Part shown: positions 3,250 to 22,097 of the stretch, in pieces
How positions within the stretch are numbered: the first letter of the stretch is position 1
Layout: every line of letters begins with the position of its first letter
From: Nitrospirota bacterium
Lineage (GTDB): Bacteria; Nitrospirota; Thermodesulfovibrionia; Thermodesulfovibrionales; SM23-35
Assembly: GCA_013388455.1 (NCBI GenBank)
Contig: JACAFF010000022.1
Location: forward strand, 105,866-166,317
Length of the DNA: 60,452 nucleotides
Direction: 5' to 3'
The notes under the pieces: model-generated
What the model was told of the DNA's origin: nothing
The model's input: the letters and a program-made list of their open reading frames with translations, nothing else
The model's database searches: none
Program-made: the position numbers and the translations under genes

Positions 3250-3789
3250 TCACCCCTTTATTAGCTCATCTTTTAAAAGCCTTAACTGGCTTCTTATGCT
3301 GGTATCATACATTGTACTGCCTATTTTTACGAGAATTCCACCAAGCAGGGAAGGGTCAACAACATAATCTATGTCTACATCCCTGTCCATTAATTTCTTA
3401 AGCGAAGATTTAATAGTGCTTTCGCGCTCTTTACCTATCTCTACAGGAGTCATTACAACTGCCTTTGCCTTTTTCTTCCTTTCAAGATAAATATTTGTGG
3501 CTATTCTTATAATATCCGAAAGGGTCAGGATTAGTCCTACTTCAGACAGATGTAGTATTAATTTTACAGTATATTCAGAAATACTCATTTTTTGCGCTAT
3601 CAACTGTATTACCTTTGTTCTTTCATCCGCTGTGAATTGTGGACTGACAAGGAAATTTCTTAGCTCCTTGCTCTTCATTATTAAATCATTCATAACAGCA
3701 AGTTCTCTTAATGTTTTTTCTACTTCGTCAAGGCCTACATTTACCAATAATGCTTTTGCATATTTATGTGCTTCCTTTGTCTTTTTCAC
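3250..3789 (-). CDS. atpH: ATP synthase subunit delta
   Basis: Delta (OSCP-type) subunit joining the peripheral stalk to the top of F1. It has 179 residues, the usual size. The N-terminal helical domain begins [13 protein letters not shown], and the C-terminal part carries the family pattern [21 protein letters not shown]. The start overlaps the end of atpF by four bases (ATGA), which indicates translational coupling. Its position between the b subunits and alpha is canonical. Confidence 0.95.
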
Positions 3790-4400
3790 CCTCTTCCTCC
3801 TATTTTCATGAGGGATTCATCAAGGAGTTTCTCCTGATCTTCTTTAGTTATCTTATCTTTGATTTTCTTTTCAGCAAGCTCTATAGCCAGATTAACAGCC
3901 TCAGCTTTTATCTGTTCTTTTGCGTGTTTTAATTCGAATTGAATATTTGTTTTAGCCTGTTCTAATATCTTTTCTTTCAGTTTCTCTGTCTCTGCTATTA
4001 TTTTGTCACGTTCTTGCTCCCCAGCACGTCTTGATGCAGAAATAACGGATTCAATCTCTGCATCCTTTGTTTTAAGCCTCTCCTCAACTTCCTGTAATGC
4101 TTTCATCGCAGCCTCTTTTGCAGCCTTGGCTTCATTAAGTGTTTTTTCGATTAACTCGGTTCTATTTTTCAAGAAATTCTGGAAAGGTTTTTTTGCAAAT
4201 TTCCAGAGGATAATTATCAGGACTGCAAAATTGATAATCTTCCACATATAATCTTTCCAAAGTGGCGTATGAGCAGCCTCCTCACCTCCGCTACTTCCAA
4301 AAGCATAAGATGTAAAAACGATACCGGAGATAAATAATGGTAAGATAAGTGTTCTTAACTTTTTGTTTTTAACTTTTAATTCTTTATCTGTTCTTATCAT
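3786..4400 (-). CDS. atpF: ATP synthase Fo subunit b
   Basis: Peripheral-stalk b subunit, anchored in the membrane and dimerising with b'. The 204-residue product has a hydrophobic N-terminal stretch resembling a signal sequence (about 18-36, ending SYAFG), a second hydrophobic segment (about 52-66) and a long charged coiled coil. This two-segment N-terminus is known in b subunits of deltaproteobacteria and Nitrospirota. The first 18 residues (KELKVKNKKLR) come from a simple AAGTTAAAA-type repeat, like other repeat-derived peptides in this window. Both ends overlap neighbours by four bases. Confidence 0.92.
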   Translation of the reverse strand: MIRTDKELKVKNKKLRTLILPLFISGIVFTSYAFGSSGGEEAAHTPLWKDYMWKIINFAVLIIILWKFAKKPFQNFLKNRTELIEKTLNEAKAAKEAAMKALQEVEERLKTKDAEIESVISASRRAGEQERDKIIAETEKLKEKILEQAKTNIQFELKHAKEQIKAEAVNLAIELAEKKIKDKITKEDQEKLLDESLMKIGGRG

Positions 4401-4816
4401 ACCTTCACCAACTTTCTAACTATTTCATCTGAAAATTTATCAACCTCTGCCCTCAATGAACTCCGTGCCTTTTCAGCTTCAGCTCTGATCTCAGCCTTTG
4501 CCTTTTCGAGCATTGCAGTTGCTTCAACGGTAGTAGCAGATATAACCTCTTTTTGCCTGTTTAATCCTTCTGCTTTCAAAGCATCGAAGACTTCCTTTGC
4601 CTTAGTTCTTGCTTCGAGCAACTCACGGTTTAACCTTGCAATCTCTTCTTCTCTTTTATTGCTCATTTCCTTTGCAGCATCGAGAGCACCCTTTACCGTA
4701 TCTTCTCTTTCTTTGAAGATTCTCATGATGGGTTTGAAAAGTATGGCATTTAAAATGAAGAGCAAAATGAAAAAATTAATGGCAAGTACAAGTATCCATT
4801 TATTAATTTCAAGCAT
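4397..4816 (-). CDS. atpF': ATP synthase Fo subunit b' (second b-type subunit)
   Basis: Second peripheral-stalk subunit, expected to heterodimerise with the following b subunit. The start is placed at the ATG at 4814-4816 because GGAAGG lies just upstream and the product then begins directly with the membrane helix (MLEINKWILVLAINFFILLF), giving 139 residues. An upstream in-frame ATG at 4870 would add 18 atypical residues. The rest is a charged coiled coil. It is the first gene of the visible atp operon. atpB and atpE are not present here, so the proton-channel genes must lie elsewhere. Confidence 0.9.
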   Translation of the reverse strand: MLEINKWILVLAINFFILLFILNAILFKPIMRIFKEREDTVKGALDAAKEMSNKREEEIARLNRELLEARTKAKEVFDALKAEGLNRQKEVISATTVEATAMLEKAKAEIRAEAEKARSSLRAEVDKFSDEIVRKLVKV

Positions 4817-16903: not shown

Positions 16904-17322
16904 TCCTAAAATCTATCTGCTTTTCTAACATATACATTTCTAACCCACTTAATTCATAAATTCCCCCTTAGTCCCCCTTTACCCAAAAATGTAATTGAAT
17001 AATGCAGATGTTGCGAGAAAATTTATTTTTCGATACCTTAGTGTTCCTTTAACTAATGGTTTTGCGAATATTTTTATCCATAAAACAATTAAAATAAATC
17101 CGATAATTCATCGAGTTAAAGAAATTTTTGAGCAATGTCTGCATTATTCGGGTTTAGCAAGGGGGGAATTAAAGTGGGGAGTGAGGCGAAATACCTCGGA
17201 AGTCAAAGACCGAAAATGAGCAAAAATTCTATGCTTGTTAGCCATAGTTTATGAATGATAATTTGGTCTAAATATTCTGGCCAATAATTATCTATATTGT
17301 TTTTATGTTATCATTTATTCTT
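16904..17322. repeat. Intergenic stretch made of nested inverted repeats (element A)
   Basis: No credible gene is present here. Inverted arms at 16997-17024 and 17122-17149 match at about 22 of 28 positions, enclosing a 97-base AT-rich spacer. They are flanked by C-rich (16964-16980) and G-rich (17159-17180) tracts resembling the two arms of a CCCCCTTAGTCCCCC-type palindrome. Next come two small hairpins, GAGG/CCTC (17183-17197) and GTC/GAC (17202-17210), then CGAAAATGAGC (17211-17221). The hairpin-hairpin-ATGAGC core recurs at 21916-21956 with different stem bases but the same pairing. Confidence 0.6.
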
Positions 17323-21248: not shown

Positions 21249-21791
21249 ATGAACATTAAAAGCATATCAGGTTATATTTTACTGCTGATAATTTCTATTA
21301 TCGTATATTCATTAAGACCTGCAAATTTTCACTACTTAAATATATTGCCTCTGTTCATGATTCTCTACCCGGTATTTGTCAGGCATAGGATTAAAATTGC
21401 ATTTTCATTAAAGGCTCTTTCCATCGGTCTTTGTGTTTCAGCTCTTATTTTAATCCCCTACTATTTTCTCTTTGGAGAAAGTGAAGGGAAGATTACTCTG
21501 TATGCAATCCTGTTTCAACTTATAGGGATTGCTTTACCTGAAGAATTCTTTTTCAGGGGATTTCTACAGGATTCAATGGGTAAGACCATTAAAGCGGTTA
21601 TTTTCGTAAGTCTACTTTTTTCAATTGCACATCTTCCTAAAGCGATATTCTCTCATGAGTGGATATCACTCCTTAGCTTTTTCCCTTCGCTCGTTATGGG
21701 CTGGCTTTATATGAAAACAAATAATATCCTTCCAGGAACTATTTTCCACTTTCTGGCTAATGTGGTACAAAGCATAGTAACAATTCAGTGA
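21249..21791 (+). CDS. CPBP-family glutamic intramembrane protease (possible CTERM-processing enzyme)
   Basis: Membrane protease of the CPBP/Abi (Rce1-like) superfamily. From the ATG at 21249 it has 180 residues and about six hydrophobic helices. The catalytic motifs are E98-E99-F-F-F-R103, H128 in SIAHLPK, and H167-F-L-A-N171, all intact. It is small for the superfamily. Small solitary members include the enzymes known or proposed to process MYXO-, JDVT- and Synerg-CTERM tails. It converges on a subtilase gene with exactly such a tail, 290 bases away. The link is inference; immunity or prenyl-protein processing are alternative roles of the superfamily. An in-frame TTG at 21243 is a less likely start. 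Confidence 0.85.
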   Translation: MNIKSISGYILLLIISIIVYSLRPANFHYLNILPLFMILYPVFVRHRIKIAFSLKALSIGLCVSALILIPYYFLFGESEGKITLYAILFQLIGIALPEEFFFRGFLQDSMGKTIKAVIFVSLLFSIAHLPKAIFSHEWISLLSFFPSLVMGWLYMKTNNILPGTIFHFLANVVQSIVTIQ

Positions 21792-21843: not shown

Positions 21844-21982
21844 ATAATAACAGGGGATAGAGTATTTGAGCGGATTTTTTTGCCGATAGTCATACAGTAT
21901 GTATATTAAAGAATCAAGAGGCAAAAACCTCGCAGGGCGATAGCCCGAGAATGAGCGCACATACTCTATCCCCTGTTATTAT
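21844..21982. repeat. 139-base element with perfect 22-base terminal inverted repeats (element B)
   Basis: Bases 21844-21865 and 21961-21982 are exact reverse complements (22 of 22), around a 95-base interior with no gene. The interior holds two hairpins, GAGG/CCTC (21918-21931) and GGGC/GCCC (21935-21946), then CGAGAATGAGC (21946-21956). The same order occurs at 17183-17221 in element A. It resembles a small non-autonomous mobile element or a structured RNA. It sits between the convergent CPBP protease and subtilase genes, so a terminator role is also possible. Confidence 0.65.
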
Positions 21983-22064
21983 GCATCAACTTTGTGAATA
22001 ATCCAGTCAGAACTGAGTTCGCTATGAATAATCAGGTATAATTGCAGCTACAGGGTTAAGCCTG

Positions 22065-22097
22065 AGTATATTCTTCGCAAGCTAAAGTTTGCGGCTA
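22065..22097. repeat. 33-base dispersed repeat overlapping the subtilase stop codon
   Basis: The reverse complement matches bases 35752-35784 at 29 of 33 positions. The core CGCAAGCTAAAGTTTGCG is itself a near palindrome. This copy supplies the last five codons (Cys-Ser-Arg-Lys-Leu) and the TAG stop of the subtilase gene ending at 22082. Confidence 0.75.

Follow-up and report, generated by a model that had tools for sequence, protein, structure and literature searches.

A dispersed intergenic repeat with a covarying three-way-junction fold in Nitrospirota genomes

Results

The locus

The stretch of DNA analysed here (the window) comprises 60,452 nucleotides of a Nitrospirota bacterium. Positions 21844-21982 lie between convergent protease-like genes, one an ORF for an Rce1-like protease with its end at 21791, the other an ORF for an S8 subtilase with its stop end at 22082. 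The original prediction of perfect 22-base inverted ends was confirmed on the window sequence, where 21844-21865 and 21961-21982 are exact reverse complements, and it proved understated: perfect inverted 16-mer pairs spaced by at most 250 nt came solely from these arms in the 60-kb window, and from none of 20 base-shuffled windows. The RNA fold of 21844-21982 reaches -58.1 kcal/mol (z = -8.8 against dinucleotide shuffles). The window copy looks intact and belongs to the repeat family described below, whose members can adopt one three-armed shape on a single strand although their arms differ in sequence; this argues for a mobile or functional folded single strand and against a chance palindrome. 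The features are as follows.

21844..21982, + strand: whole element, a folded three-way-junction repeat; match of covariance model R1 at G000:C22:127708-127853, 128.7 bits, E 4.6e-27 (this copy is among the 37 sequences that built R1)
21844..21865, + strand: outer stem P1, 5' arm; exact inverted repeat; P1 covaries at 17/20 pairs (37-sequence set) and 19/20 (52 G138 copies)
21868..21873, + strand: conserved junction GAGCGG; all six positions invariant or at least 90% conserved (n = 37 sequences)
21877..21884, + strand: arm P2, 5' strand, TTTTTGCC; pairs by covariation in both alignments
21920..21927, + strand: arm P2, 3' strand, GGCAAAAA; pairs by covariation in both alignments
21928..21934, + strand: conserved junction, here CCTCGCA against CCTCGGA in the family consensus; CTC within it pairs with GAG at 21947-21949
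21935..21946, + strand: hairpin P3, GGGC-GATA-GCCC, with a GNNA loop; from sequence, fold and covariation
21947..21958, + strand: conserved junction GAGAATGAGCGC (family consensus GAGAATGAGCGA)
21961..21982, + strand: outer stem P1, 3' arm; exact inverted repeat; P1 covariation as for the 5' arm
21983..22010, + strand: TTTGTGAATAATC, perhaps the right half of an outer inverted repeat in decayed form; weak, by eye
17147..17253, + strand: second, truncated family copy that holds 17183-17221; R1 match of 29.9 bits, E 0.0018; adjoins a copy of a 177-bp MITE

The core that was said to recur at 17183-17221 is present there, within the weak copy at 17147-17253. This copy scores low and is broken because the 177-bp MITE (C22:122847-123019, window about 16982-17154) occupies the place of its left part. 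The MITE itself has TTAACCCGAATAATGCA-like ends, with TTAA at each printed end in 11 copies. A search of the own genome for it gave 57 matches at E <= 0.01, of which some are fragments of the same copy, and it was also found in L031-L060. At the starts of contigs C22 and C8, MITE copies are inserted into copies of the element.

The repeat family

A similarity search retrieved further copies in the window's own genome (2.1 Mb, 44 contigs), and a fixed core pattern run over a species collection returned 65 stretches. Their titles read Nitrospirae, Nitrospirota, Nitrospira, Nitrospiraceae or Thermodesulfovibrionales, and one was labelled Nitrospinota. The aligned loci share a plan of about 140 bp: P1, TTTGAGCGG, P2, CCTCGGA, P3, GAGAATGAGCGA and P1'. 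The shared fold is a three-way junction, in which the outer stem P1 leads through GAGCGG to arm P2, then through CCTCGGA to hairpin P3, and back through GAGAATGAGCGA. We built the covariance model R1 from 37 sequences, namely 36 pattern-found loci and the window copy. GAGAATGAGC is invariant among them, which is partly built in since the search pattern that yielded the 36 loci demanded most of it; it is also mostly retained in 52 model matches of genome G138. TTTATGAATAATC, whose possible decayed counterpart in the window is TTTGTGAATAATC, stands exactly beside 4 of 12 own-genome copies, and further outer arms were spotted by eye in the aligned loci.

In the own genome, R1 gave 14 matches at E <= 1, including a single place that was matched on both strands and so counts twice. 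Among 230 genomes of the class, 114 carried the element at E <= 0.001, up to 13 candidates being scored in each. When 150 candidates were scored, the copies numbered 113 in G138, 112 in G134, 77 in G155, 39 in G133, 35 in G108, 13 in G104, 12 in G145 and 10 in G135. In a sample of 395 genomes of the phylum, run with strict filters and eight candidates per genome, and for which the share of other-class genomes is not shown, all 71 genomes with a match at E <= 1e-8 were marked as the same class or nearer. Spread by viruses was considered and set aside: the gapped core pattern hit three viral contigs, none confirmed by the model at E 0.01.

Rfam 15 returned no family at gathering scores. Permissive scans gave four chance-level matches for the window stretch (E 4.8 to 9.4) and none for L203 7000-8000. 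We found no description of the family in Rfam or in the literature searched.

Other repeats were also seen. A C-rich repeat (CCCCCTTAGTCCCCCTTTG..AAGGGGG) sits inside the P2 arm in L068, L079, L080, L108, L115, L119 and L217. A second structured-looking repeat, larger at about 240 nt (CGGCATCAGAGATTTTTCGGTAACAGTTCTTAG..) and opening with a similar TTGAGCGG, occurs in L302 at about 3360-3780 (G134) and in L298 at about 4200-4540 (G139), where no Rfam match overlaps it at gathering scores. Solo hairpins of the form P1-GAGCG-P1' were tried as a parent form and rejected: 8 of 1996 GAGCG sites passed the hairpin score, against 1 to 10 for each of four control 5-mers, and only L193 was a family member; a stricter ungapped scan passed none. 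In L193 1501-1560 (G021), P1 and a single GAGCG are left, and the core may have been lost between two flanking GAGCG copies.

Covariation and fold

In the 37-sequence alignment, 94.9% of the cells pair and 24 of the 36 pairs have changed on both sides (P1 17/20, P2 6/9), compared with 13.0 in shuffles and none of 500 shuffles as high. Because the first pattern search fixed P3, we repeated the count on 52 model matches, and P3 was judged on model matches. The 52 copies all come from one genome, G138 (the search covered 42 stretches, 39 from G138 and 3 viral), and are called G138 copies throughout. They pair in 97.0% of the cells, in an alignment that was fitted to the model and leans towards it; slid controls drop to 32-53%. 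Both sides have changed in 29 of their 36 pairs (shuffles 16.9; 0/500), distributed as P1 19/20, P2 8/9, P3 hairpin 2/4 and the nearly invariant CTC-GAG 0/3. A single genome, G138, holds many copies that differ in P1, P2 and P3. In low-copy genomes, judged by eye, P2 and P3 are swapped for quite different hairpins with the pairing kept.

P2 was first named by eye and tested for covariation afterwards. It is missing from the RNAalifold consensus of the 37 sequences, which gives P1 and P3, and from the minimum-energy fold of the window copy; P2 rests on covariation.

These alignments also bear on the paired-hairpin core proposed earlier. Its second stem, GGGC/GCCC in one copy and GTC/GAC in the other, is real and corresponds to P3, a position at which many other hairpins substitute in other copies. 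The GAGG-loop-CCTC stem does occur in the minimum-energy fold of the window copy taken alone, but the family does not support it: the strand preceding CCTC (GGCAAAA) pairs family-wide with an upstream TTTTGCC, forming P2, and L207 and L220 read GCGG instead of GAGG with CCTC unchanged. The covariation in both alignments strongly supports the earlier idea that selection acts on a structure, as opposed to simple copying, and the search for further covarying copies, set beforehand as its test, yielded hundreds.

Strand preference

Wobble pairing was skewed towards one strand. In P1 of the 52 G138 copies (inner 18 positions, both types scored alike), the + strand showed 88 G-T against 9 A-C. Counted per copy, 44/52 were richer in G-T and 1/52 in A-C; per column of the model alignment, G-T prevailed in 14 of 18 in P1 (A-C in one), by 8 to 2 in P2 and by 7 to 0 in P3. 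The same direction was found in P1 of the 37-sequence set (63 to 9) and of low-copy-genome copies (38 to 12; 25 of 29 copies parsed).

By gene context, with a looser end rule (total 87 against 15 over 52 copies), the G-T:A-C counts were 14:2 for ++, 46:8 for --, 12:2 for +- and 13:3 for -+. The excess runs in the same direction in all four contexts and is thus independent of the direction of transcription. As a test of replication strand, GC skew carries no information here, for it tracks the direction of the genes (r 0.87). As a control, the arms of the 177-bp MITE gave 77 G-T against 23 A-C, from 11 near-identical copies (about 7 to 2 per copy) with few independent positions, which is not 1:1. 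We read the excess in the family as selection for folding of the + strand, with the reservation that this control imposes.

DNA or RNA

The loops of P3 were examined in 50 of the 52 G138 copies. GNA was found in 25/32 triloops and GNNA in 8/12 tetraloops, with GNRA in 0/12; six loops were larger or unparsed. Published work counts GNA and GNNA loops, when closed by two or more G-C pairs, among the extraordinarily stable mini-hairpins of DNA, such as d(GCGAAGC) (PMC4686876). P3 is often exactly GCGAAGC, GCGCAGC, GCGTAGC or GCGGAGC. Such a mini-hairpin is a motif, and the family is an element. In the low-copy set (21 entries, 25 copies), GNA/GNNA made up 7 of 15 tri- and tetraloops, two of these being GNRA (GAAA and GGGA), and this weaker preference slightly lowers the probability of the DNA reading. 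Hairpin-loop energies do not separate DNA from RNA here, as the parameter sets used give GNA triloops no bonus.

Beside P1, the 52 G138 copies showed no conspicuous promoter- or terminator-like signal. TATAAT-like hexamers upstream were as frequent on the sense strand (34/52) as on the antisense strand (35/52), and four T at the 3' end of the stem, the T-run of an intrinsic terminator, occurred in 13/52. Loops, signals and the antisense placement described next lean towards single-stranded DNA over an independently transcribed RNA, and do not settle it.

Placement and orthologous sites

The copies are intergenic and often adjoin a stop codon. With gene context taken from ORFs called by a simple script, the element was antisense to co-directional neighbours (--) in 27 of the 52 G138 copies and sense (++) in 8; another 15 lay in divergent or convergent gaps and 2 had one neighbour missing. 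In 23 of the 35 co-directional copies (18/27 antisense, 5/8 sense), at most 16 nt separated the stem end from the stop codon of the upstream gene. No target duplication was seen around the 52 copies: no exact repeat longer than 4 nt abutted them, and the longest common substring of the flanks averaged 4.40, compared with 4.20 +/- 0.15 when shuffled.

We compared orthologous sites in two regions with six related genomes. At site e3, the element keeps its orientation in 6/7 genomes and P1 shows compensated changes (GACAGGACA/TGTCCTGTC, GGCAGGGCA/TGCCCTGCC, GGCAAGGCA/TGCCTTGCC and GGCAGGATA/TATCCTGCC); in G139 its interior is swapped for another repeat. A copy fixed in this way may be subject to selection or correction independently of mobility. 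The other sites differed between genomes as follows.

Site e1: G138, G137 and G134 carry it on minus and G139 on plus; G136 and G133 have other sequence
Site e2: element in G138 (P2 replaced wholesale), G137 and G139; no model match in G136, G134 and G133
Site e4: copies with different flanks in G138, G139 and G136; G140 and G134 lack it, and G133 has other sequence
Site A: element in G138, G139 and G136; a remnant is left in G137, and G133 and G134 lack it
Site B: element in G138, G139 and G133; degraded in G136; half deleted in G137; missing from G140, where the imprecise loss also took part of a gene end; other sequence in G134
Site C: G138 carries it on minus, G139 and G137 on plus, behind an additional 5' arm of P1; G140 and G134 gave no model match

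Loci L077 and L125, from two named MAGs, likewise carry the element in opposite orientations between what appear to be the same two genes. Among the sites compared, no clean empty site fixed the insertion point, given the imprecise loss at B and the differing flanks of the filled copies at e4.

Candidate enzymes

Surveys of Y1/HUH transposases and reverse transcriptases found no mobilising gene. Y1/HUH genes (PF01797) were present in 158/230 genomes, 90 of the 114 with the element and 68 of the 116 without it. This is a weak co-occurrence (odds ratio 2.6, p 0.001, with no phylogenetic correction), and 24 element genomes had no Y1/HUH gene at E 1e-5, among them G135, which is 100% complete and holds 10 copies. 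Twenty stretches with a Y1 gene, from eleven genomes and several of them stopping at a contig end, included two with the element, at 3.2 and 2.2 kb from the gene. Because the element does not flank the Y1 genes that were inspected, RAYT/IS200 was dropped as the obvious partner and remains only a candidate class. Reverse transcriptase showed no link (5/16 tested genomes with the element, 5/14 tested without it) and was not detected in the copy-rich G134 or G155.

A repeat scan covered three of the Y1 stretches. The Y1 gene of L256 and of L258 is bracketed by a different inverted repeat, TAGGGACACATCCCATT, perhaps its own REP-like ends; in L249, it is bracketed by yet another.

Discussion

The explanation that fits best, which we hold tentatively and at somewhat less than an even chance, is a non-autonomous interspersed repeat that is moved and kept as a folded single strand, probably of DNA, and that is REP-like without being a member of REP. 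The + strand would be the active form. As a single strand, most likely DNA, it would fold into stem P1 and arms P2 and P3, with GAGCGG, CCTCGGA and GAGAATGAGCGA at the junction. A putative enzyme acting in trans would read this folded junction and not the sequences of the arms, leaving the arms free to change as long as pairing is kept. The same enzyme may move or copy the element, by a single-strand route, into intergenic gaps, often beside a stop codon.

The original prediction had offered three options: a non-autonomous element, a structured RNA or a single-strand recombination site. The first, taken as a plain double-stranded DNA element, is disfavoured because stem sequences vary among the copies of one genome and no target duplication is seen; a folded single strand is favoured, leaning to DNA, with RNA the less likely form. 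The element may be the last of the three. It is a bolder and rather unlikely step to see here a new kind of bacterial mobile element, one that would be recognised through a conserved three-way junction of folded single-stranded DNA, with all three arms variable and a putative recombinase acting in trans.

The main rival, which we consider unlikely but serious, is a family of structured RNAs: the + strand would be transcribed and the three-way junction would work as RNA (regulator, ribozyme-like or protein-binding) from many dispersed copies. Covariation with tolerance of G-U on one strand is as expected of RNA, P1 changes are compensated at the fixed site e3, and the loops of low-copy genomes are mixed, GNRA included. 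However, the G138 copies are mostly antisense to their co-directional neighbours, the TATAAT-like hexamers show no sense-strand excess, T-runs are infrequent, GNRA is lacking among the G138 tetraloops and no Rfam family matches at gathering scores. Moreover, an RNA-borne spread needs the reverse transcriptase that went undetected in G134 and G155.

An ordinary MITE, whose terminal inverted repeats are read by a transposase on double-stranded DNA and whose fold is a by-product, is improbable. Some own-genome copies do have outer inverted arms past P1, as with TTTATGAATAATC, and a TTAA-flanked MITE is abundant in the same genome, so that part of the family may have spread inside a MITE. Nevertheless, the terminal P1 sequences differ among G138 copies, the interior hairpins covary, none of the 52 copies shows a target duplication, and by eye outer arms do not stand out around most of them.

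We see only a slim chance for a transcription terminator, possibly bidirectional, or a stabiliser of mRNA 3' ends. The stem is long and stable and frequently ends next to the upstream stop codon, but the conserved junctions, P2 and P3 would be superfluous for this role, T-runs are found at the stem end of a quarter of the copies, and both orientations occur inside co-directional gene pairs. Plain terminator activity, the alternative raised at the outset for the inverted ends, is thus not a general explanation. Template switching during replication corrects imperfect palindromes and could produce covariation without selection. It would perfect the P1 arms locus by locus and fits the opposite orientations at sites C and e1, but it predicts neither the excess of G-T over A-C nor the conserved junctions, and we rate it as poorly as the terminator.

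Some genomes hold more than 100 copies, and the family combines three covarying arms with a strand bias. This makes it a natural data set for working out the strand and the type of nucleic acid that are recognised, and for tracing the enzyme through co-occurrence. It is also a warning that covariation in intergenic repeats need not mean RNA.

Few repeats are recognised by shape more than by sequence; REP, the ends of IS200/IS605 and attC are among them. The family shares with REP and REPIN a high copy number, intergenic location and palindromic make-up, and here too one strand appears to matter. For REP, the literature gives single-stranded DNA of one strand as the substrate of RAYT (TnpA-REP, a Y1 HUH enzyme) (PMC8266576) and a length of 20-40 bp (PMC3733652). 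The excess of G-T over A-C and the GNA/GNNA loops may hint at such a folded substrate, read with the MITE control that is not 1:1. The family departs from REP in tag, size and gene association: no conserved GTAG or CGTC lies beside it, its junctions being GAGCGG, CCTCGGA and GAGAATGAGCGA; a REP is a single hairpin, whereas the family has three arms over about 140 bp; and RAYT genes are flanked by their own repeats, unlike the Y1 genes examined here and the element.

ERIC is of similar size and folds back as a whole. Like other bacterial MITEs, ERIC is described as intergenic, with tens to hundreds of copies per genome (PMC10969869). From these elements the family is set apart by having no terminal repeat common to all copies, no target duplication that could be seen, and interior hairpins that covary. 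Finally, the attC site of integrons is a folded single DNA strand with variable stems, present as a hairpin in cassette arrays. The family resembles attC in its variable stems and in its probable role as a folded single strand, and differs from it by its three-way junction and its dispersed copies.
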